The position numbers were made by a program, and so were the translations under genes. Source: Patescibacteria group bacterium (GTDB taxonomy: Bacteria; Patescibacteriota; Patescibacteriia; WFTA01; S139-112). Taken from it: 54,700 nt of DNA. Below, piece by piece: positions 8,355 to 54,596 of this stretch (within the stretch, counting starts at the first letter, position 1; each line of letters opens with the position of its first letter). The notes beneath the pieces are model-generated. The model did no database searches, had not been told where the DNA came from, and saw only the letters and a list, made by a program, of their open reading frames with translations. The stretch spans positions 1 through 54,700 of the forward strand of contig WFTB01000015.1 in assembly GCA_015485695.1 (NCBI GenBank), read 5' to 3'.

Positions 8355-8397
8355 TTTGGGTAATCGTATTGAATAAGATTTTGACCGAACTCAAGCC

Positions 8398-8461
8398 CGC
8401 TTGCCACCGGCAACCGTCCTCGCTTGTTCGATTCCATTATTGTACTGAGCGGGTAGGGGGA
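8398..8461 (-). repeat. Detached copy of tRNA-Gly 3' end plus trailer (64-bp direct repeat)
   Basis: This 64-bp segment matches 10812-10875 with only two mismatches (cgctt versus cgccc). Read on the minus strand it contains the last 14 nt of tRNA-Gly (CCCCCTACCCGCT with one upstream base), the start of its trailer, the T-arm antisense segment, and the GGTTGCC-GGT-GGCAA hairpin. The full tRNA is absent, so this is either an att-like end of an island inserted at the tRNA or a displaced copy of the trailer element. Confidence 0.85.
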
Positions 8462-8589
8462 CGTTAGAAATGCTATATCACAAATGGGAGAGACTTGATT
8501 CTAGTGCGCCGGTATTATACGAATATATTCACACAAGTTGTTTGTATTTATGTGATTTTTTTAGAATCCGATTGCTTGGGTTTGATTAG

Positions 8590-9000
8590 CTAAATTAAAG
8601 GATTCAAAGCAACAATTCCAGCTGTGACGAAGGCAATCGTGCGGGAAAACCATTGACGAGCCAAAAGATACACGAGCGCCACAATGCCAAATCCAAACAA
8701 TGCATACGAAAGCCGCAACGCCCACACATTCGCTCCGCCGATCAGCAGAAACACGTGCTGGATGAGAAATACAAGCGGCGGATGGTCATGGAAAGAAAGG
8801 TACGCCCACCACGGAATATTCGGATCCGGCAGCTGCCATGTGCTTGGTTGCGCAAGGGCAAAATCAAAATCCATCAAGCCGATTGACCGAAACCCGTAGA
8901 GCGCCTCGTCTGATATCACATCATCCCTCCCGAGCTGAAACAAACGAAGAAAAAGCGCAACCCACCGACGCCGTCCATATGTAAACCCTATGTCGCTGTT
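8590..9000 (-). pseudogene. Truncated GT39/ArnT-like glycosyltransferase remnant
   Basis: The open frame from 9000 down to 8590 encodes about 136 residues resembling the start of dolichyl-phosphate-mannose-type (GT39/PMT_2) transferases: an arginine-rich entry to TM1, then SDEALYGFRS (acidic loop), then the family landmark FHDHPPLVFLIQH and two further hydrophobic segments. Normal members have 450-600 residues and about 11 membrane helices. This one stops after the third helix, and no good start codon precedes the conserved part (only a TTG at 8943 inside it). It lies inside the stretch bounded by the tRNA-Gly direct repeats, consistent with a decayed passenger gene. Confidence 0.7.
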
Positions 9001-9096
9001 TTATCATATGGTATCCATTTAAAATAAAAATAACAGCTGAAATATGCCACTGTTATTCTATCACAAATATTACTCACTGTTTTTGCCAACGCGCGA

Positions 9097-10572
9097 TTAC
9101 TGGTGCAGAAACCGACGATACAAGAAATTGAGACGGTCCGCTTCTTTTCTGTCGCCTCTGCCAATCGCTTCCTGAAACCTCACTTTAAGATTCTCCTTCA
9201 CTTTCGGCACATAAGAAATAAAATATACGCTTCCGTTCTCCGCGACTTGAGCCCCTCTTCTTACATCTCCACCATACTCATCTCTGACATGCCGCACTTC
9301 TTTAATTTGTTCCATTAAATACTTCCGTTTTTGTTCAAGAGACCAGCCGTCTTCCGGATAATACGCATCGTCTTGAAAATCTTCTACAAACCCATTAAAT
9401 GTTTGGATTAAATCATACATATCTACTATGGTAATCAACTTTGTCTTATCATGAATCATGGCAAAAAATACGGTAATATTTGCTTTTTCTGCCTCCTGTG
9501 TCATCTGTTCCAGATTGCTGATATCAAAATCATTCACCCCTTCATCAGAAAGCACAAGCACGGCAGCAGGAGGTTCTTTGTCGCTGTTCCCTCGCCTGCT
9601 TTGAGTTAATCGGTCTATTGCGCTTTGAGCGACATGAAGCTGCCTTTCCTTACTTCCTTTAAACCTCATGCCGTCGACGAATGAACGCACATCATCCGGA
9701 CTCTGTATTCCCTTTTCTCTCGGATCAATTTCATAACTAAACGACGCCATTGTGCAATCATGAGTATTAAAAAAACCGCTATCATTCATAATCTTTTCAA
9801 TCAACTTATCGCGCAATAAAGCAGAATCATCACTCATTGACCCGCTGCGGTCTATCAAAATCCGCAACACGGGAAAGCGGGATATATATTCAACCAATTC
9901 CTCGTATTGCTTTTCTCGTTGCTGTTTTCTGTCGTTCTCAGAAGGTTGGACAATGTCCAAAGAAACAAATCTGCATTTGCCAAACAATTCCTCCCTAATC
10001 TCTTTGGGTAATTTCTCCGCCTCTTCTTCTCTGTAACGCTCTTTTGTATCCGGGTTTATTAAATCTGTAATCGCGGTAACCCCTTTTCCGTAGCGTGGAT
10101 TAACGGGAATATTGGTAATCACTCCAGCATTAAAAAAATCCTTCAGTGAAGGGTTTTTTTGGATAAACAACTCAACCACCTCATGGTAAATCCTTCTCAC
10201 TTCAGCAACCCTCGCTTGCGCTAATCCTTTATTCCCTTCTTCCCAGGTAATTGTTTGTCGCTCATCTGCAGAGGCCGATACGTTCACCCGCAAATGAGAA
10301 AGGGCGTCTTTATCCATCTTCGCAACCTCTTTCTCTAAAAAATAAAACAGTTCTGTTTTGAGTTTTTCTTCTTTCTCAGGGTTCATTTTTGCTTCATTCG
10401 TTGGAAAAGCGTCTGTCATGTCAAAATGAAACAAAAGTTTCTCTCCACTCTCCTTTTCAACATCTCCCTGTTCTGGACCGCACCCAAGCCCAAAACCAAA
10501 AGCAACAGCGCCAAACCCCAACGTCTTCATAAAATCTCTCCTGCTCCACCCTCTTCCTTCGTGATTATTCAT
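9097..10572 (-). CDS. Tat-exported von Willebrand factor A domain protein
   Basis: A 491-residue protein with a twin-arginine signal: SRRDFMK at residues 10-16, a weakly hydrophobic segment, then Gly-Leu-Gly-Cys at 28-31, suggesting a Tat-exported lipoprotein (the residue three before Cys is Gly rather than Leu, so lipidation is uncertain). Residues 45-230 form a charged domain I do not recognise. A VWA domain starts near 235, with MIDAS residues DRSGS at 241-245 and a later LVLSDEGVND strand. VWA domains bind metal and protein partners and commonly serve adhesion or complex assembly. The C-terminal 100 residues are basic and helical. It sits alone between the tRNA-Gly repeat array and the GT39 remnant. 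No tat genes are in the window. Confidence 0.8.
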   Translation of the reverse strand: MNNHEGRGWSRRDFMKTLGFGAVAFGFGLGCGPEQGDVEKESGEKLLFHFDMTDAFPTNEAKMNPEKEEKLKTELFYFLEKEVAKMDKDALSHLRVNVSASADERQTITWEEGNKGLAQARVAEVRRIYHEVVELFIQKNPSLKDFFNAGVITNIPVNPRYGKGVTAITDLINPDTKERYREEEAEKLPKEIREELFGKCRFVSLDIVQPSENDRKQQREKQYEELVEYISRFPVLRILIDRSGSMSDDSALLRDKLIEKIMNDSGFFNTHDCTMASFSYEIDPREKGIQSPDDVRSFVDGMRFKGSKERQLHVAQSAIDRLTQSRRGNSDKEPPAAVLVLSDEGVNDFDISNLEQMTQEAEKANITVFFAMIHDKTKLITIVDMYDLIQTFNGFVEDFQDDAYYPEDGWSLEQKRKYLMEQIKEVRHVRDEYGGDVRRGAQVAENGSVYFISYVPKVKENLKVRFQEAIGRGDRKEADRLNFLYRRFLHQ

Positions 10573-10627
10573 ACTGCTTGTGTTAAGCTAAACCCGGCAC
10601 TGAAAAAACTCTAAAAAAAATCTCTTC

Positions 10628-10656
10628 AAAAATTTGGTGGGCAATCACTTGCCACC
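10628..10656 (-). terminator. Terminator ending the tRNA-Gly trailer array
   Basis: On the minus strand GGTGGCAA-GTGA-TTGCCCACC forms a stem with one bulge, followed by AAATTTTTG. It uses the last copy of the repeat hairpin as its left arm and would stop tRNA-Gly transcription before the VWA gene. Confidence 0.55.
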
Positions 10657-10861
10657 GGCAACCGTCCTCGCCCGTTCGATTCCCTCATTAGTACTGAGCG
10701 GAAAGAAGAAATCACCTGGGCTTGCGGTCGCTTGCCACCGGCAACCGTCCTCGCCCGTTCGATTCCCTCATTAGTACTGAGCGGAAAGAAGAAATCACCT
10801 GGGCTTGCGGTCGCTTGCCACCGGCAACCGTCCTCGCCCGTTCGATTCCATTATTGTACTG
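10648..10861 (-). repeat. 83-bp tandem repeats in the tRNA-Gly trailer
   Basis: Two identical 83-bp units (10648-10730 and 10731-10813) are followed by a third, partial unit (10814-10861) running into tRNA-Gly. Read with the tRNA (minus strand), each unit starts at CCGCT-CAGTAC, identical to the tRNA's last five bases plus trailer. It continues with GGAATCGAAC, the exact reverse complement of the tRNA-Gly T-arm segment, then GGGCGAGGA, a hairpin (TTGCC-GGT-GGCAA) and CCGCAAGCCCAGGT. There are no variable spacers, so this is not CRISPR. Confidence 0.9.
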
Positions 10862-10934
10862 AGCGGGTAGGGGGAATCGAACCCCCATCGCCAGCTTGGA
10901 AGGCTGGAGTAATAAGCCATTATACCATACCCGC
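10862..10934 (-). tRNA. tRNA-Gly(TCC)
   Basis: A complete 73-nt cloverleaf on the minus strand: acceptor GCGGGTA/TACCCGC, anticodon stem CCAGC/GCTGG with loop CTTCCAA giving anticodon TCC, T-arm GGGGG-TTCGATT-CCCCC, discriminator T. CCA is not encoded; the trailer begins CAGTAC. The trailer holds the 83-bp repeat array. Confidence 0.97.
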
Positions 10935-12240: not shown

Positions 12241-14223
12241 ATGTTTCATGGCAATACAACAAAAGAGAATGCGATTAAAAAAACAAATAAGCGTTTTTGG
12301 GGTCGGTTATTTTGGGCGGTGTCCGTTCCGGCTTTGATTGCAGGATATGTCGCGATGTCGTCTTCGGGAATTCCGCTTGTTACGGATACGCCCGCTATAG
12401 CTCAACAAATTCCTCCTATTGTTGTTGATGGTAACCAACCAAGACAGCCAATAGACGGATTTGGGGCGACAATAGCCGACGGACACGTTGATTGGACGGG
12501 GAACAGCAAACAAGAACTTGCAGATTTTGTGGTAAACGAACTGGGAATGACTGTCGCGCGTATAGGGTTCCCGGACACGATAGAACAAACTCGACAGTGG
12601 CCGGATTATGTTTTTGTCAAAAACAACGACAATGACGATCCGTTCGATACCGATATTTTAAAATTCACCCAATGGATAGAAGACGGTGGAGATAATCAGC
12701 CTGACGTAGAATTGATGAGAGCGTTTAAGAATGCCGGGCTTAACCGATTTCAGTTGTCAATGTGGAATCCGGCGTTTTGGCTCAAGACGACAAACTCGGA
12801 CAGAACGGCGCCATGCGCGGTTCCAACCGAATACAGGGGTGGGCATTTGTGCATGAGAGAGAAAGATGAATTGGGCGAGCATGTCAGCGGATTTATACAG
12901 GCTCTCAGCATGCAAGGATTGAACGTAGAATGGTTTTCTCCTGTTAATGAAGCCGATTGGGGTCCCACGGAAGAGTATCCGGAGTCTATGCGAGATATAG
13001 TGGAACTGTTTCAAGACAGGTTCGCATTGGATAATTTGACAACTAAGGTGGTCGCTCCGGAGCTAACGCGCACGTTTAAACCGTATTGGGTAGACACGAT
13101 TAACAGCGGTCCTCGTGGAAGAATATTGGATTACGCGAGTTTCCACCAGTATCCTGACAGTTTCAGCGACCCTGAAAACCCAAATTATGTAAGCAATCTT
13201 GAAAGCGTCGGAAAATTATGGACGGACCAGGGAATCAAATTGATGCAGACGGAGATGTCTAATTTTTACGGAGCGGGTGGCGATCAAGCGATACAAGATA
13301 CGTATGAAGAAGGATTTTTAACCGCTTGGCACATGTATCAAGGGCTAACAAAAGCGAATTTCAGCATTTGGATGTATTGGGTGTTGCAAAGCGGTTGGCA
13401 CAGGGATGGAGTTCCCCCGGGAACCGAAGGTCAAACTTGCAGAAACAACACTCCTCCCAAACCGCCAAATCCAGCTCCGAATTATTATCATTGCGGACCG
13501 GGTCAACGATTGATAAGGACAATGCCCAATGGTGGAGGTTTTGTGAAAACTCCGAAATACTGGGCGTTTAGAATGTATTCGCGTTTCGTGCGTCCCGGAA
13601 TGACTCGATATGAGGTTACCGGAGCCCCGAATGATTTGAAAGTGTCTGCGTACAGCAATGACAGTGGAGAGGTTACTGTTGTCGTGCTTAATACAAGCTC
13701 GGAAGCGAGAGCCATGCCGGACATAAGTTTTAACGGCATAAGTCCTTCGAACGGATTTTTCAAATATCAGTATTCCTCGACCGATTACGCATCCAAATCA
13801 CAACAAAGAATCGCGGTTCAAAACAACATCGTCAGCGATTCGGAGTGGCTTCCAGGACGTTCGGTGACCACATATTCGACGATAGATGTCGCGGATGCCG
13901 TGGCGGACATACCAAACACACCTCCTCCGACCACACCTCCGCCGGACACGACATCACCGCCGGACACGACATCACCTCCGGACACCACAACACCGCCGTC
14001 GAACCTTCCAGAATTGAGGATGAACAAGGCAGACTTTGATTGTAGCGGTATGGTTGATGTCATTGACTTGGGTATATTTTTGTCGCGTCAAGGAGAATAT
14101 CCGCACAGCACAAGAGGGTTTTGGCCACCGTGCGGAGGGGGTCCGATACCAACAGCGATAGTTCCTCCGGAATGTCCCCCTGGTAATTCCATTTGTATAG
14201 GTGATGGCGGAGCCCTTGAGTGA
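12241..14223 (+). CDS. Exported GH30-family glycoside hydrolase with dockerin-like tail
   Basis: A 660-residue protein with an N-terminal membrane anchor or signal segment (about 20-45, preceded by KKTNKRF). The catalytic barrel (about 55-430) opens with QPIDGFGATIADG, typical of GH30. The acid/base glutamate is Glu237 in VNEADW and the nucleophile is Glu338 in MQTEMSN. A beta-sandwich characteristic of GH30 follows (about 440-540). GH30 enzymes cleave beta-xylans, beta-1,6-glucans or related glycans; the substrate here is not determinable. A linker of PPDTTSPPDTTS repeats (about 555-585) leads to a half-dockerin, DFDCSGMVDVIDLG. No Shine-Dalgarno sequence precedes the ATG. It is co-oriented with the dockerin protein and the giant lyase-like protein. 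Confidence 0.85.
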   Translation: MFHGNTTKENAIKKTNKRFWGRLFWAVSVPALIAGYVAMSSSGIPLVTDTPAIAQQIPPIVVDGNQPRQPIDGFGATIADGHVDWTGNSKQELADFVVNELGMTVARIGFPDTIEQTRQWPDYVFVKNNDNDDPFDTDILKFTQWIEDGGDNQPDVELMRAFKNAGLNRFQLSMWNPAFWLKTTNSDRTAPCAVPTEYRGGHLCMREKDELGEHVSGFIQALSMQGLNVEWFSPVNEADWGPTEEYPESMRDIVELFQDRFALDNLTTKVVAPELTRTFKPYWVDTINSGPRGRILDYASFHQYPDSFSDPENPNYVSNLESVGKLWTDQGIKLMQTEMSNFYGAGGDQAIQDTYEEGFLTAWHMYQGLTKANFSIWMYWVLQSGWHRDGVPPGTEGQTCRNNTPPKPPNPAPNYYHCGPGQRLIRTMPNGGGFVKTPKYWAFRMYSRFVRPGMTRYEVTGAPNDLKVSAYSNDSGEVTVVVLNTSSEARAMPDISFNGISPSNGFFKYQYSSTDYASKSQQRIAVQNNIVSDSEWLPGRSVTTYSTIDVADAVADIPNTPPPTTPPPDTTSPPDTTSPPDTTTPPSNLPELRMNKADFDCSGMVDVIDLGIFLSRQGEYPHSTRGFWPPCGGGPIPTAIVPPECPPGNSICIGDGGALE

Positions 14224-14282
14224 GTTTGTTTATTGAATTTTGCATAACGTTAAAAGCGCGATATTTCTCTAAGATTTGTATT

Positions 14283-17200
14283 ATGTTAAATCCGAATCGT
14301 AAAAAAACCTGGTTGTTGCTTACCGCACTATCGACAATAGCCGTAGGCGCGGTCATGGCTTACGGTCCGTACGATGAACGAGCGAGCGCTCAGGTGTCAG
14401 GTTCATGGCAACCGCCTCAAGGGTCACCTTTGTCTAACAAAGAACATCCAAGACTGTTTTTTACGGCCGATTCAAAGCAAAAAATAATAGATAAAATAAA
14501 AACGTATTATCAAACCGATTTCAGAGATTTCGTGAACACTTTGGATGCGGATTACGGTACTTCGTTCTCGGGTTATGAGACTCAAAATCTTGGAATTAAC
14601 GCCGTCAGAAACTACGCGCTTTTGTGCCAAATCGAACCGTCTTCGGTTGGAGTATCCGGGTCTTACAGCAGACAAGAATATTGCGATGAATCCGTCCGTT
14701 TGGCAAAACAAATGGCTAGCGCTTTGCCGGACTACAGAGACAGCATACATTGCGCTCAAACTTGGGACGGGAAAAACTGCGGATTGTTTAACGTATCGTT
14801 GGCTGTGGCTTATGATTGGGCATACAATGACATGTCGGTTGCGGACAGACAATCTTTGCAAGGTTACATAGAGTCATCATTTGACCGGTGCAATGAAGAC
14901 TGCAAAGGTGAAAGGCCACTGATTATGAATGTCGCAACCACGGCGGCGTTTCATGGTGTCTTCCCTTTCTTGGCATTGTACGGAGACGGGTCTTCGAGAG
15001 AAGCTGAGATGACGGACTGGTATAAGAAAAATTTTCTGGACGGAATGCTGGCGGTGTCGGATTCTCTGTACGAGGGTTCGGCTTATCACAATGAAGGGGA
15101 TTCTTATTCTTTGGACGTGGTTTTGCCAATAGTTATGATGAGTAGCGCGTCATCACCCGCCCTTAACACAAATTTATTCGAAAAGCACGCATATTTGAGG
15201 TATATGCCGGATTATTTTTATTACACCACCATACCTCAGAAAACACCTTATGGAAGCGGAGGATACGCTGGAGAAAGAAACAATACGCACAGATACGGAG
15301 TGCAATGGATGCCGGATGAAACACCTTATATAGTGCTAAACGCGTCGGCGGCGGAGCTTGACGATGTGGACAGCGCTCAAGCCGGATTTGCAAAATGGCT
15401 TTCCGACGGACCGGGACCTTACGCTTTGGGAGGGATTGAAAACGTAAAGCGATACGACAGAAGACTGTATGATTTGTTCACCAAATTCATTTGGGGAACT
15501 CGACAAGTCCAGGTTCTGGATGCCGATTCCGCAAATAAAAATCTAATGCAAAATTTGGGTGGTCAAATCGTTATGCGTTCCAGTCACGATTCTGAGTCGG
15601 CGACAAGGGCCGTGTTTCATGCTTATGATTGGTTTTACGCTTCAAGTCATGACGATACGGAACAAGGCGCCATAGGAATATGGAAATACGGCCCTCTTAT
15701 ACTCGATAGTGTCGGAAATTCCAAAAACTCATCCAACATGAGAAGATGGACTACCAATAAAGGCCCCGCTCTTAACAGTTTGATGGGCGTGTTTAAACCG
15801 GGCGAAACTGACAAGGATGGATATAATTTTATGGAGTTTGACATAACTTGGCCAGGAGCGAGCACGATAAACGACCCGAGCCAATACTATGAAGGAAGTC
15901 AGATGGACAGAGGGGACAAAGTCATGGACAGAAAAGTAGATTTGTATGACTATGTGAATTATGATTACGGCAAAATGTATACCGACAAAGCGTCTTCGGC
16001 GAGGAGACAATACGTATATTTGAGGGGTCCGGAAAACAAAGAATATGTTGTGGTTTACGATCAGGTCGATTCCGCGTACGAGAAACGAGCGCTTTTTCAC
16101 AGCGGTGTCGATTGGCAGGCGATTGGAGGTTCGTGGGGTACGGAAGGAGTTTTCGACAGATTGATAGGAACAAGGACTGTAAAAATAGACAACAGTTCAT
16201 TGCCGTCGGGAAAAGGCGCGTTGTTTTTGAAAGTTTTAACTCAAAACGCGAATATATACAAACAAGGAGGACAGGCATATCCTTTGACGGACGTTGAGGG
16301 GCGCAACATATCGTACGGAGGCTCGGGGGATTATGAATATGAATGTTTTTCCATCGGTTGTTGGAGGATACAAGTCAGAACAAACGAGTCAAATCTCTTG
16401 ACGGCAATGCAAATAGGAGCATCGCAGACAATCGGACCGAATATGGTATCGACCGTTGCCGTTGATGGAGGGAACAGTGAAGGAGTGATGATTGGCGACA
16501 GGGTCGTGATGTTTTCAAGAACGAGCGGACAGCAAATGAGCTCGACCGGATACACCGTGTCAACAAGCGAACCGGTTACTCATATAATTGCGAATATGAC
16601 GCCCGATACGGAATTCGAAGTCGTGATAAACGGAGCGTCGCAAAACATAATTTCAAGCTCCGCGGGAGTACTCACTTTCCGAGATGACGGTACCGGGAAC
16701 AGGTCGGTTTCTATAGGTGGCGGCGTAAGCGTTCCACAGGATACCGAACCTCCGAGAGTGACGGTGTTTGCTGTAAATCCGGAAGCTCCTCAAGAAACCT
16801 CAAATACCGTGGAAATAAGTTGGACCGCATCTGACAACAAGTCTTTGGACAGGATTGAAATATGGAGGGCGGATTTTAACGGTACCGATTGTTCTGATTC
16901 CGATAAATCGGGATGTTCTTGGCGGAAAGTCCAATCAGTAAACGCTTATGGCTCAAAGCACTCGGGCTCTGCAACGGACAATCCTCCGGTTGGGACGTTT
17001 TGGTACGGCATACACGCAATCGACTCTTCCGGAAATATCGGATATGAGCCTAATCCGCCGGGGTCGCTTAAAGTTATAAAAATCGAATCGACGGATCCGG
17101 GAAACGGTGGCAACGACGGTGGTGGTAACGGAGGAAACGGAGATAACGGAGGTGGAAACACACCTTCAAACAACCCTCCCGATGCTGTGATATCGGCAAG

Positions 17201-20200
17201 CCCGACCGCCGGAAGCGCTCCGTTGGTTGTTGATTTCACGGGGACGAATTCGTCTGATTCGGATGGCACAATAGTTTCTTACTCTTGGGATTTTGGAGAT
17301 GGCTCGGGGTCAAGTATCGCGAATCCGACATACACATATCAGAGCCCGGGAACATTTACCGCAAGATTGACGGTTACGGACAATCAAGGAGCGATAGGGC
17401 AATCTTCGGTAATAATAACGGTCACCGAGCCAGCGTCCGGGAACGTGATATATGTAGACAACAGAGCCACTCAGGCGGGCGACGGTTCTCAAGCTAGCCC
17501 GTACCAATCAATCGCAAAGGGCATTGAGGCGATACAACCCGGGCAAACGATGATAATAGTCGGGGATGCGTCCGGAATAGGCAGGGTGTATGCGGAAGAC
17601 ATAGATTTATCCAAAAACGGTTCAGCGACCGCAATGTACACAATGAAATCTCAAGACGGAGAAACGGTTATCGTTCAACATTCAAACACCATTACTCCCG
17701 GCGATTATTGGGTGGTTAGAGGCATTGTTTTCGACCATCAGAATACTTCAAGTGACGCAATTCGAATATCCGGTTCGAATACGACGTTTGACGGAGTCAC
17801 TCTAAAAAACGGCAAAAGAGACGGATTCGAAATAGACGGGTCGGCAAGAGACATAACGATAAAAAATTCAAATATATATAATTTTGTTTGGCAACCCGGT
17901 TCGGACGCTCATTGTATAGTAATAGACCCGGGAGCCGGAGGAATAAACATAGATTCCAACACAATATACGATTGCGGAGGCGATGGTGTTCAGATTTTCG
18001 CAAATAGCGGAGACGAACCGTCAACTTACGCTAAAAACGTAACTATATCGAACAATACAATATATACAACACGCGGAACAGGAAGTGAAAACGCGCTCGA
18101 CATCAAAGGCGCCGTCGGATTAACCATTGACGGGAACACGATATACGGATTCGAAAACAAAGCTATTGTTATACAAAAGGGTCCGCAGAATGTTTCTTTC
18201 ACAAGAAACACGGTATATGATTCTTTGCAGGGGCTTGAGGTCAGGGGTGAGGGAGGATTTAATCCTATAAACGTAGATATAATCAATAACGTTTTTTATA
18301 ACATAACGGGAGAGTACGCTCTTAAATTCGACAATGTCGAAAACCTGAAAGCTCAACACAATACCCTGGTATCCATATCCGGTAATCCGTTTAGAATTGA
18401 ATTGGGAGGAGTGGTGTCGGGATATATACAAAACAATCTGATAAGTTCATCCGGCCAGAACAGTGTTTCCGGGACTCAGAACGCTATCGTGTCGCACAAC
18501 GGATGGTTTGACGGCGCGACATCTGGAAGTCTCGGAGGAACGAATGAGGTTGCTGGAGATGACGCGCAGTTCGTGGACGCGTCCGCTTTTGATTACAGAT
18601 TAAAGTCAAATTCCCTCGCAAAAGATTCGGGAAGAACTCTTTCACATGTTGCGACGGATTTTGACGGAACATCAAGACCGCAAGGTTCGGGATATGACTT
18701 AGGTGCGTATGAGGTTGCATCATCAAGCGGAAACCCAGAGGTGTATATAGACATGATATCCGACAAGACTGAAGTGTATGTTGGAGACAGCATAACTTAT
18801 ACATTAACTTACAGGAACAACTCGGATTATCCGGCTGTGAATTTAAGAATATACAACGACATACCTCCCGGAACAGAACTCATTCCCGGTTCAATAACCG
18901 GTGGAGGCATTGTCAATTCGGGAACAATAGAGTGGGTTCTGTCCAGAGTCGAAGCGCGTCAGTTTGGAGATTTGTCTTTTTCTGTCACCGTTTTGGAGGA
19001 AACACCGAACAATCCGAACGACCCTCCGCCTGACACCACGGACCCCGACAACCCTAATGACCCGAACAATCCGCCACCGGATACAACTGACCCTGACAAT
19101 CCGAACAATCCGAACGACCCTCCGCCTGACACCACGGACCCCGACAACCCTAATGACCCGAACAATCCGCCACCGGACAACGGCATTGTAGGTTCGTGCG
19201 TTGCTCCCGGGCAACGCGGTGGTGCGGTTGTGGTTTCCGGCGCGAATATCCCTTCATCCCTTGTCGGAAAACCGATAGATTCGGTGTATGGATACAGTTA
19301 CAAAAACAATGAATGGACCGCAGAGCCGATACAAATAGACGAGCGACGGCCGGCTCCGTCTCCAACAATCGCAACCGTATATGTGACTCCGTCGTCTCTT
19401 ACGGACACAGTACCCGAAAACGATTGGGCGGGAACAGATACCGAGCCTGGTATAGATAACGGTCAATATAGCGATGAAATAGTATTCGACTATTCATCTC
19501 TGGGACCAAGAGCTCCGGGTGGTGTGCCAAACCCCGAAGGAGCCAAGGGTACAAGGTATGAAGTGGCGGTGACCGATACGCTAACCGACACGACAAAATA
19601 CTTCTATTTATTCCAGACTAACAATTCATTGCAAAGGTCAACGGTAGATTTTGTGTCATACGATTATAACGTATCGGATTGTAACGGATATGCGTCCACA
19701 TGCGAAGACACAACCGCGCAATCGGCTTGTTATAGCACGCATTTCTCTTTAAGGTGGGTTCAAGACGAAATACGAATAAAACCCGAGGCGGGAGGAGATA
19801 ACACGGACATAATAGACAGGGTCATGGGCGCGGCCTATGCGACGTCTCCCGATGCTCCGTTCAGGGCGAGTGTCGGAGAAAACGAAGACCATAAAATGAA
19901 CGCGGCTATAGCATGTGGCGGGTGGTCGGTGTATGACCCTATTCATTACTATCTAGGGCATATCGATGGGCCCGTAAGAGCCATACGACAAATAAAAGGA
20001 GCTTGTTCATTCGAAGATTTGATAAGAATATGGAAATTCTCCGGCGCGCAGGTTGACGAAACGCTATCAATGCAGGGGCACTCGTTTGGCGTTAATAGTG
20101 GGGGCTACGGAATGAGAACAAACTACAGCAAAGACGCGGTTCCATTGACATACTACAGTGAATCTTTCCCCGACGGGATTAAGTTTGACGGAGAACCCGA

Positions 20201-20579
20201 TTTCGGAAGCGCGGTAAACATATCCGAGATAAACGAGGCGGAACACATGAGAGGGATATGGAGTCAAATTGACAGCGCTAGAGGGGGTCTCGTCAAATTC
20301 AGCAAACAGATAACACCATACGCCGATCCGTCAGTGAGCAGTTATTGGCTGTATATGCACGACGACGCGCAATTTACCGATGCGACCGGAGATCGCATGG
20401 GAATGTACGGTGGTGAAGGATTCAGATTGAGGAGTTTTGAGAACGCCAATGAAAGACCGATACTGTATGAGACCTCATACAGACCGACAGCCGCAAGCAT
20501 AGGAGTATCGGGGAACCAATTCGGAAATCTCATGAGAAACCCGCTACAAATAAACGTAACTCAGCAAACGGGATTATAA
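14283..20579 (+). CDS. Giant exported heparinase II/III-like and beta-helix protein
   Basis: A 2098-residue protein. The signal peptide (1-37, ending ASA) favours ATG 14283 over the upstream GTG 14220. Domains in order: alpha/alpha-toroid lyase-like region (about 45-430, EHPRLFFTAD and GSAYHNEGDSY); heparinase II/III-like beta region (about 440-810, YASSHDDTEQGAIGIW); an Fn3-like domain (820-930); a Gly/Asn linker; a PKD domain (963-1050, YSWDFGDGS); a right-handed parallel beta-helix (1053-1480, many NNTIY/NTVYD turns); a DUF11-like domain (1486-1572); a Pro/Asp/Thr linker (1574-1632); and a C-terminal 460 residues I do not recognise. The heparinase-like part probably eliminates uronic-acid-containing polysaccharide, and the beta-helix may be a second polysaccharide-binding or lyase module. 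A strong bidirectional terminator follows. Confidence 0.8.
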   Translation: MLNPNRKKTWLLLTALSTIAVGAVMAYGPYDERASAQVSGSWQPPQGSPLSNKEHPRLFFTADSKQKIIDKIKTYYQTDFRDFVNTLDADYGTSFSGYETQNLGINAVRNYALLCQIEPSSVGVSGSYSRQEYCDESVRLAKQMASALPDYRDSIHCAQTWDGKNCGLFNVSLAVAYDWAYNDMSVADRQSLQGYIESSFDRCNEDCKGERPLIMNVATTAAFHGVFPFLALYGDGSSREAEMTDWYKKNFLDGMLAVSDSLYEGSAYHNEGDSYSLDVVLPIVMMSSASSPALNTNLFEKHAYLRYMPDYFYYTTIPQKTPYGSGGYAGERNNTHRYGVQWMPDETPYIVLNASAAELDDVDSAQAGFAKWLSDGPGPYALGGIENVKRYDRRLYDLFTKFIWGTRQVQVLDADSANKNLMQNLGGQIVMRSSHDSESATRAVFHAYDWFYASSHDDTEQGAIGIWKYGPLILDSVGNSKNSSNMRRWTTNKGPALNSLMGVFKPGETDKDGYNFMEFDITWPGASTINDPSQYYEGSQMDRGDKVMDRKVDLYDYVNYDYGKMYTDKASSARRQYVYLRGPENKEYVVVYDQVDSAYEKRALFHSGVDWQAIGGSWGTEGVFDRLIGTRTVKIDNSSLPSGKGALFLKVLTQNANIYKQGGQAYPLTDVEGRNISYGGSGDYEYECFSIGCWRIQVRTNESNLLTAMQIGASQTIGPNMVSTVAVDGGNSEGVMIGDRVVMFSRTSGQQMSSTGYTVSTSEPVTHIIANMTPDTEFEVVINGASQNIISSSAGVLTFRDDGTGNRSVSIGGGVSVPQDTEPPRVTVFAVNPEAPQETSNTVEISWTASDNKSLDRIEIWRADFNGTDCSDSDKSGCSWRKVQSVNAYGSKHSGSATDNPPVGTFWYGIHAIDSSGNIGYEPNPPGSLKVIKIESTDPGNGGNDGGGNGGNGDNGGGNTPSNNPPDAVISASPTAGSAPLVVDFTGTNSSDSDGTIVSYSWDFGDGSGSSIANPTYTYQSPGTFTARLTVTDNQGAIGQSSVIITVTEPASGNVIYVDNRATQAGDGSQASPYQSIAKGIEAIQPGQTMIIVGDASGIGRVYAEDIDLSKNGSATAMYTMKSQDGETVIVQHSNTITPGDYWVVRGIVFDHQNTSSDAIRISGSNTTFDGVTLKNGKRDGFEIDGSARDITIKNSNIYNFVWQPGSDAHCIVIDPGAGGINIDSNTIYDCGGDGVQIFANSGDEPSTYAKNVTISNNTIYTTRGTGSENALDIKGAVGLTIDGNTIYGFENKAIVIQKGPQNVSFTRNTVYDSLQGLEVRGEGGFNPINVDIINNVFYNITGEYALKFDNVENLKAQHNTLVSISGNPFRIELGGVVSGYIQNNLISSSGQNSVSGTQNAIVSHNGWFDGATSGSLGGTNEVAGDDAQFVDASAFDYRLKSNSLAKDSGRTLSHVATDFDGTSRPQGSGYDLGAYEVASSSGNPEVYIDMISDKTEVYVGDSITYTLTYRNNSDYPAVNLRIYNDIPPGTELIPGSITGGGIVNSGTIEWVLSRVEARQFGDLSFSVTVLEETPNNPNDPPPDTTDPDNPNDPNNPPPDTTDPDNPNNPNDPPPDTTDPDNPNDPNNPPPDNGIVGSCVAPGQRGGAVVVSGANIPSSLVGKPIDSVYGYSYKNNEWTAEPIQIDERRPAPSPTIATVYVTPSSLTDTVPENDWAGTDTEPGIDNGQYSDEIVFDYSSLGPRAPGGVPNPEGAKGTRYEVAVTDTLTDTTKYFYLFQTNNSLQRSTVDFVSYDYNVSDCNGYASTCEDTTAQSACYSTHFSLRWVQDEIRIKPEAGGDNTDIIDRVMGAAYATSPDAPFRASVGENEDHKMNAAIACGGWSVYDPIHYYLGHIDGPVRAIRQIKGACSFEDLIRIWKFSGAQVDETLSMQGHSFGVNSGGYGMRTNYSKDAVPLTYYSESFPDGIKFDGEPDFGSAVNISEINEAEHMRGIWSQIDSARGGLVKFSKQITPYADPSVSSYWLYMHDDAQFTDATGDRMGMYGGEGFRLRSFENANERPILYETSYRPTAASIGVSGNQFGNLMRNPLQINVTQQTGL
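19012..19178 (+). repeat. 96-bp coding tandem repeat in the linker
   Basis: A 96-bp unit (19012-19107) is repeated from 19108 to 19178 without mismatch, encoding a Pro/Asp/Asn/Thr-rich linker of the giant exported protein. The perfect match implies recent duplication or homogenisation. Shorter related motifs are nested within each unit. Confidence 0.85.
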
Positions 20580-24671: not shown

Positions 24672-24745
24672 GCGCCCGTAGCTCAATTGGATAGAGCGTC
24701 TGGCTTCGGACCAGAAGGTTAGGGGTTCGAGTCCCTTCGGGCGTA
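24672..24745 (+). tRNA. tRNA-Arg(TCG)
   Basis: A 74-nt cloverleaf: acceptor GCGCCCG/CGGGCGT with one G-U pair, anticodon stem TCTGG/CCAGA with loop CTTCGGA giving anticodon TCG, T-arm AGGGG-TTCGAGT-CCCTT, discriminator A. CCA is not encoded. It is followed at once by the 103-bp repeat array, whose units each contain a copy of its 3' end. Confidence 0.96.
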
Positions 24746-24947
24746 CAAGGCACAGCCTTGCTCTTATTGGACTCGAACGGGCGAGGAGTCTTGTTGGGGA
24801 CAAGACACCGCAAGCCCAGGTCCGGAACGGCGAGTCCCTTCGGGCGTACAAGGCACAGCCTTGCTCTTATTGGACTCGAACGGGCGAGGAGTCTTGTTGG
24901 GGACAAGACACCGCAAGCCCAGGTCCGGAACGGCGAGTCCCTTCGGG
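24728..24947 (+). repeat. 103-bp tandem repeats downstream of tRNA-Arg
   Basis: Two identical 103-bp units begin at 24728 (inside the tRNA) and 24831, with a truncated third at 24934-24947. Each starts with the last 18 nt of tRNA-Arg (CGAGTCCCTTCGGGCGTA), then a hairpin CAAGGC-ACA-GCCTTG, then GGACTCGAAC, the exact reverse complement of the tRNA-Arg T-arm, GGGCGAGGA, a hairpin GTCTTG-TTGGGGA-CAAGAC and CCGCAAGCCCAGGT. The T-arm antisense and flanking core match the tRNA-Gly array; the hairpin stems differ in sequence but keep pairing. Confidence 0.92.
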
Positions 24948-53783: not shown

Positions 53784-54596
53784 TCACAAAGGGCTTTTAA
53801 TGTTTTTTAGTTTTGGATTCGTCACTTGAGTATAAATCTGTGTCGTGCGGATATTCGAGTGCCCCAATAATGCCTGCACATACCGCACGTCTATCCCGTT
53901 TTCGAGCAAGTGCGTTGCAAAAGAGTGTCGCAAGGAGTGGAAAGTTGCGTCTTTTTTAACGCCACTTTTTTTCAGTGCGTTTTGAAAAACTTTTTGAGCT
54001 GTGGAAGCGGTTAATTTTCCACCGCGATTGCTTTCAAAAACAAGACAATTGTTTTTCTTTCCGGCCATTAAATTTTGAAAATCAATTTTTAATTTTTCCG
54101 GGAAAACGGTTATCCTGTCTTTTTTACCTTTGGTGTTTTTAATATGAATTGTCAATTCTTCCAAATTTATATCTTTTACTTTAAGATTAATAATCTCACC
54201 AACTCTCAATCCGGCAGCGTATCCCAAAGAAATCATTAATTTATGCTTGGAATTTTCCATTTGAGAAATAATTTTTTCTATTTCTTTTCTTGATAAAATA
54301 ACTGGCAGTTTTTTGTTCCTCTTGGCGAATTTCAAATCAATTTTTTTAGATGATTTCAAAACTTCTCTGTATAAAAACTTTATGGAATTTAAGGCCAAAT
54401 TAATTGTCTGAGAAGATTGTTTTTTACCTTGTTTCTCCAGAAGATATTTTTCAATCGCCTCGTCTCTGTTTTTTAGATTTTTCTTTTTAGCAAAAACAAG
54501 ATACTCATTCGCATAGTGCAAATAACTTTTTACGGTTCTGGGACTATAACCCTTCAACTTCATTATGTTTTCCATTTTCTTCAAAATTGATTGCAT
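53784..54596 (-). CDS. Tyrosine recombinase/integrase (XerC/XerD-like)
   Basis: A 270-residue tyrosine recombinase. Residues 1-85 form the core-binding SAM-like domain (YSPRTVKSYLHYANEYLV). The catalytic domain shows Arg in AAGLRVGEI, Lys in NTKGKKDRI, the HxxR box FHSLRHSFATHLLE, the second histidine in LLGHSNIRTT and the nucleophile Tyr in TTQIYTQV, so it should be active. It cuts and rejoins DNA through a 3'-phosphotyrosine. The gene is notably AT-rich compared with its neighbours, suggesting acquisition. Housekeeping Xer, integrative-element integrase and integron-type roles are all possible; it is a candidate for moving elements at tRNA ends such as those at 8.4-10.9 and 24.7 kb, which is inference only. 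Confidence 0.92.
   Translation of the reverse strand: MQSILKKMENIMKLKGYSPRTVKSYLHYANEYLVFAKKKNLKNRDEAIEKYLLEKQGKKQSSQTINLALNSIKFLYREVLKSSKKIDLKFAKRNKKLPVILSRKEIEKIISQMENSKHKLMISLGYAAGLRVGEIINLKVKDINLEELTIHIKNTKGKKDRITVFPEKLKIDFQNLMAGKKNNCLVFESNRGGKLTASTAQKVFQNALKKSGVKKDATFHSLRHSFATHLLENGIDVRYVQALLGHSNIRTTQIYTQVTNPKLKNIKSPL

Follow-up and report, generated by a model that had tools for sequence, protein, structure and literature searches.

The 3′ end of a tRNA-Gly gene occurs twice in the stretch of DNA analysed here (the window; 54,700 nucleotides, contig C15 of the 984-kb, 47-contig assembly G000), which raises the question of whether the DNA between the two copies is an island integrated at the tRNA gene and, if so, what the repeated sequence at its ends represents. 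The 64-bp repeat itself holds up, its copies at 8398-8461 and 10812-10875 being identical at 62 of 64 positions (E = 4.6e-25 within its own genome). Both mismatches are adjacent (8424, 8425) and fall within one stem strand of a folded unit. The repeat belongs to something larger: the trailer element that the first-pass annotation described at both ends is a structured unit of about 65 nt. Four copies of this unit lie 3′ of tRNA-Gly(TCC), three of them adjacent in tandem and one at 8359-8435, and two tandem repeats of 83 bp (10645-10727 and 10728-10810) had been missed. The locus contains the following features.

10861-10934, minus strand: intact tRNA-Gly(TCC), called by ARAGORN and Rfam RF00005
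10850-10862, minus strand: trailer type A, TCAGTACAATAAT, from tRNA-Gly to unit 1, its first two bases overlapping the tRNA-Gly end as called by ARAGORN; the same trailer stands at 8436-8448
10783-10849, minus strand: unit 1, with 5′ arm GGAATCGAAC (10840-10849), hairpin A and a degenerate tRNA tail (10781-10796); R1 and R2 models
10700-10766, minus strand: unit 2, with trailer type B (10767-10780) and a degenerate tail (10698-10713)
10616-10683, minus strand: unit 3, truncated and degenerate, at the end of the tandem array; R2, E = 1.5e-7
9097-10572, minus strand: VWA-domain protein of 491 aa with a Tat signal and a lipobox-like motif; PF00092 (E = 2.1e-7), TIGR01409
8590-8943, minus strand: N-terminal fragment of a GT39/PMT_2 gene, a pseudogene; PF13231 (E = 6.8e-10)
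8449-8460, minus strand: displaced tRNA-Gly 3′ fragment, CCCCCTACCCGC
8436-8448, minus strand: trailer type A of the displaced unit 4
8359-8435, minus strand: unit 4, the displaced distal copy, with stem strand AAGC in place of GGGC; R2, E = 9.6e-8

The displaced tRNA-Gly 3′ fragment in the distal repeat copy is 12 nt long (8449-8460). The trailer of the distal unit, type A, is found elsewhere only directly 3′ of the two tRNA-Gly genes, while the inner units of the array carry a different trailer. An identical block, with a fifth unit, stands 3′ of tRNA-Gly(GCC) on contig C31, and the two tRNA-Gly genes share their 3′ ends. Further along the window, at 14220-20579, lies a 2119-aa open reading frame with long Pro/Asp/Thr linker repeats, whose N-terminal part resembles the heparinase/alginate-lyase type; a probable glycoside hydrolase at 12241-14223 adjoins it.

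Read in the direction of the tRNA, a unit consists of a trailer, often a terminator-like hairpin, followed by a 5′ arm, hairpin A, the motif AGGY, a small hairpin B and a copy of a tRNA tail. The 5′ arm, GGANTCGAAC, is the reverse complement of the tRNA T-loop, GTTCGANTCC, and the conserved hairpin A has the form GGGCGAGGA...GCC-RGT-GGC...CCGCAAGCCC. The tail reads CGANTCC plus the 3′ strand of the acceptor stem, thereby copying the 3′ strand of the T-arm and the acceptor end of the cognate tRNA. Among the 22 units that have a tRNA in front of them, the tail matches the 3′ end of that tRNA in 17 (at most 2 of 17 positions mismatched), as against 6 of 454 comparisons with swapped partners. In 19 of the same 22, the arm agrees with the cognate T-loop at position 4, a result that none of 20,000 shuffles equalled. 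The fold covaries: a model-fitted alignment of 29 distinct sequences has double-sided changes at every one of its 24 pairs. Paired cells amount to 92.9%, compared with 74.8% after shuffling and about 50% when the partner is slid by one column; this alignment (A2) was fitted to the structure of the model and so favours pairing, with an effect size far beyond the controls. GU/UG cells outnumber AC/CA cells by 32 to 7, and the tRNA-sense strand is therefore the folding strand. Comparison with the covariance models of Rfam 15 returned only tRNA and chance matches.

The units are not peculiar to tRNA-Gly. Within the window, a second set stands behind tRNA-Arg:

24672-24746, plus strand: tRNA-Arg(TCG)
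24769-24838, plus strand: first copy of the tRNA-Arg unit, with an exact tRNA-Arg tail at 24832-24849
24872-24941, plus strand: second copy, identical, with a truncated tail

These repeats are 103 bp apart, each with the folded core, and the first ends in the last 18 nt of the tRNA. Another tRNA, tRNA-Gln on contig C6, has one unit behind it. A model search in which 97.6% of the genome was read base by base placed exactly nine units in G000, all nine 3′ of a tRNA and on its strand, two of them at a distance of 2.4 kb. These two are the distal copy in the window and a unit behind tRNA-Ser on contig C33. On the latter contig (L082:3480-6099), a second cargo segment follows tRNA-Ser(CGA) and is itself followed by a degenerate unit; it encodes a truncated HTH protein, a DNA-alkylation-repair enzyme, an HxlR regulator and a monooxygenase-like protein. 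At five of the 45 tRNA 3′ ends in the genome, the contig stops no more than 4 nt away (contigs C3, C46, C37, C2 and C31; P about 5e-11), as expected if the DNA behind tRNAs repeats or varies. Strain variation or repeats 3′ of these five tRNAs probably broke the assembly.

Beyond this genome, the distribution of the units is patchy. Of the 285 genomes examined in the class, 14 contain the unit by the R1 covariance model. Nearly all placed matches follow closely on a tRNA (Glu, Gln, Gly, Lys, Leu, Ser, Arg, Pro or His), and one unit stands behind tRNA-Ser in a genome outside the class. The distance from the tRNA in further patescibacterial genomes is nearly always 10-60 nt. Absence of units is weakly supported, because searches of many genomes with these models score few candidates and have low sensitivity; the phylum-wide R2 search is accordingly weakly informative. 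In G138, a near copy of the tRNA's own end lies within 450 nt at nine of 47 tRNAs. The sister genus (G001) has a copy of the tRNA's own 3′ end within 400 nt downstream at 11 of 34 tRNAs, against 0.24 expected from swapped ends. The downstream tRNA-end repeats of this genome (L009, L048, L058, L063 and others) have different hairpins, of the GCCCTGTCGAATGACAGGGC type, set into the T-loop, and constitute a second, different family of units. Some genomes contain an anticodon-loop version, and in G209 a unit has a displaced tRNA-Pro 5′ half on one side and the intact tRNA-Pro gene on the other. Motif matches in viral contigs (IMG/VR) were rejected as chance: they fail to fit the model, the single weak match resembles coding sequence, and no phage-borne unit was found in that collection. 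Searches of open-licence papers yielded no description of such units.

Whether the segment between the units is inserted DNA can be judged from its content and its ends. As the first-pass annotation had it, the segment contains a VWA gene with a Tat signal and a broken GT39 gene, and no integrase: these two genes are all it holds, and no integrase gene lies within 8449-10860. No remainder matching the GT39 fragment was found in the same genome. The VWA protein has one weak match across 57 relatives and none in the wider genome set (pattern-based search), in viral contigs or in plasmids; a role in defence was rejected, as PADLOC returned no match. The proposed integration at the tRNA-Gly 3′ end is partly sustained. 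A displaced 12-nt fragment is present on the tRNA-Gly strand, correctly oriented and accompanied by a trailer of the tRNA-adjacent type, but the repeat goes beyond a simple att duplication: it is a structured unit that stands behind many tRNAs without any island. The nearest genome compared, G001, belongs to another genus and was discarded as an empty-site reference, no synteny having been found.

We consider it likely, though not proven, that the 2.35-kb VWA/GT39 segment was inserted at tRNA-Gly, since it lies between tRNA-attached and displaced units and a relative (G061) shows the same layout; the VWA gene is probably inserted cargo. In the simplest order of events, unit 4 would once have been attached to tRNA-Gly. 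DNA with a new tRNA end, units 1-3, VWA and GT39 would then have entered, and 12 nt of the old tRNA end would survive at 8449-8460. The segment would thus have arrived, or been left behind, by insertion at tRNA-Gly, displacing the formerly attached unit to its present position (8359-8460). That the segment is instead native and never inserted, the four Gly units having arisen by duplication, seems very unlikely to us. The G+C content of the VWA gene is ordinary (0.421, against 0.428 for the genome) and would suit a native gene, but the lack of a close homologue across those relatives, the plasmids and, by pattern, the wider genome set would not, nor would the broken state of GT39. A native origin also fits poorly with a distal trailer otherwise confined to the neighbourhood of tRNA-Gly, and with the recurrence of the layout at tRNA-Ser with its cargo genes and at tRNA-Lys of G061.

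The relatives provide further views of such loci. The tRNA-Lys of G061 is separated from its unit by a 9.1-kb island that encodes a large serine recombinase (PF00239 and PF07508, next to the tRNA); the window has this layout. In G192 the unit immediately follows tRNA-Lys and the genes further downstream are shared, so that this genome shows the locus without the island. A link between the unit and the serine recombinase was rejected, as the island is bounded in G061 by a short repeat that does not include the unit; a tblastn search for a relative of this recombinase in G000 found none. The recombinase gene (L283:657-2477) reads into tRNA-Lys, so that its last residues, GTRTQNPRLKRPLLYH, are encoded by the opposite strand of the tRNA, and tRNA-coded protein tails of this kind may be common in annotations. 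In f52, the tRNA-Lys unit is 95% identical between genera and its flanking genes about 67%, which suggests selection on the unit itself. At tRNA-Gln(TTG), relatives have the upstream ftsX neighbourhood in common: G176 carries a unit there, G061 and G138 lack one, and in G192 its place is taken by a displaced fragment of an older tRNA-Gln. On contig C54 of G192 (L264), tRNA-Gln(TTG) is flanked by a 13-bp inverted repeat and stands ahead of the 3′ part, from the anticodon arm onward, of what resembles an older tRNA-Gln, an arrangement that would follow from insertion of an entire tRNA gene at the anticodon loop. An encoded CCA gave a mixed result as a marker of the original tRNA end, with three loci pointing one way and two the other.

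Several known systems share features with these units. By the Islander definition (PMC4383910), an island integrated in a tRNA or tmRNA gene is bounded on one side by the intact tRNA and on the other by a displaced 3′ fragment of the cognate tRNA, oriented the same way. The units share the intact tRNA and the similarly oriented fragment, but they measure about 80-150 bp, lack an integrase, have a structured end of their own and form arrays, and their fragment is preceded by a hairpin element complementary to the T-loop. Islands of large serine recombinases are likewise comparable in that the G061 island displaces the tRNA-Lys unit; they differ in that the recombinase belongs to the island and is not known to act on the unit.

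The 178-bp repeats of Escherichia coli tyrT, associated with rtT RNA, are tandem repeats behind a tRNA, each with a tRNA 3′ end; to our knowledge they occupy a single locus in that species. The tRNA-Arg repeats of the window resemble them, with their spacing of 103 bp and exact 18-nt tail, whereas the present units occur at many isotypes, have a common covarying core and tRNA-matched arms, and match no Rfam family. Integron attC sites fold as one strand, carry RYYYAAC and GTTRRRY boxes, and form arrays behind an anchor site, attI. Folding single-strand sites, arrays behind an anchor and integron-integrase-like recombinases in the genome are points of likeness, while the absence of intI and attI, the tRNA specificity and the lack of a gene in most units are points of difference. 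The attC boxes were not found on direct reading, the arm and T-loop being GGANTCGAAC and GTTCGANTCC and the tRNA sequence GTTCGAA differing from GTTRRRY. The covarying fold exists on the tRNA-sense strand only.

G000 encodes three tyrosine recombinases, two of them XerA/integron-integrase-like and below the NCBIfam cut-offs; no IntI was found at an attI beside an array, and these two IntI-like enzymes are not beside units. One of the two is in the window and is a candidate trans-acting enzyme:

53784-54596, minus strand: tyrosine recombinase, XerA/integron-integrase-like; NF040815 (218.1 bits, cut-off 220), TIGR02249 (217.6, cut-off 265), PF00589

The occurrence of the unit behind many tRNAs, usually with a copy of the tail of the tRNA concerned, suggests a little-known type of tRNA-inserting element. 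The explanation we prefer, to which we give close to an even chance, is that the units are small, structured and non-autonomous elements that mark a tRNA 3′-end integration site and act as a folded attachment site. They would be integrative elements of about 80-150 bp entering tRNA genes near the T-loop, each incoming unit bringing a replacement tRNA 3′ end and pushing the old one outward. Folding restores the T-arm half-site in the form of a short duplex; recombination therefore probably involves the folded single strand of the unit, as with integron attC sites, and a recombinase supplied in trans. A folded attachment site would also explain why the 5′ arm must match the tRNA T-loop. The terminator-like trailers, the absence of units at neighbours of shared context and the distant units speak for this reading. 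Against it count the tails, which are perfect over the acceptor part, beyond the need of a short recombination site; the lack of a recombinase linked to any small unit, the serine recombinase of G061 having moved the island and not the unit; the conservation of the tRNA-Lys unit between genera; and a displaced tRNA fragment in the window of only 12 nt. A broader version, which we regard as rather unlikely, is that Patescibacteria host a tRNA-anchored cassette system in which tRNA-matched folded units insert, stack and occasionally carry genes, the tRNA taking the role of attI and the recombinase acting in trans.

The conservation of the tRNA-Lys unit and the perfect tails speak for some selected function, and the unit could work as an RNA element within the tRNA transcript, its arm pairing with the tRNA T-arm or the copied tail to control folding, processing or stability of the precursor. 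This is possible but unlikely in our estimation. The constant position on the tRNA strand and usually close behind the tRNA, the folding of the sense strand, the strong covariation with conserved apical and internal loops, and a unit more conserved than its flanks between genera would all be natural for an RNA. Set against them are the terminator-like hairpins between tRNA and unit (L108-L110, L116, L124 and L127), with a T run at some of these loci, the patchiness among tRNAs, including absence at loci with the same upstream neighbour, an acceptor part of the tail that has no role in the predicted fold, and units that lie 2.4-9 kb from the tRNA. Quite unlikely, in our view, is that the units are plain remnants of integrase islands deleted to their ends and multiplied by tandem slippage, with hairpins that are now functionless. 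Such an origin agrees with the identical tandem copies, with the presence in relatives of a genuine serine-recombinase island and a displaced piece of tRNA-Gln at tRNA loci, and with assembly breaks coinciding with tRNA 3′ ends. Independent remnants would not be expected to share, across families and with one genome outside the class, a hairpin A that is conserved and covaries and whose arms are specific to the tRNA.

The known mobile elements of these very small and mostly uncultured bacteria are few. The units may account for the contigs of this genome that break off at tRNA ends, and their consensus is open to testing in genome mining. A structured unit whose ends adapt to each tRNA would reveal either an integron-like route of gene capture that is new or a new RNA element attached to tRNA genes.
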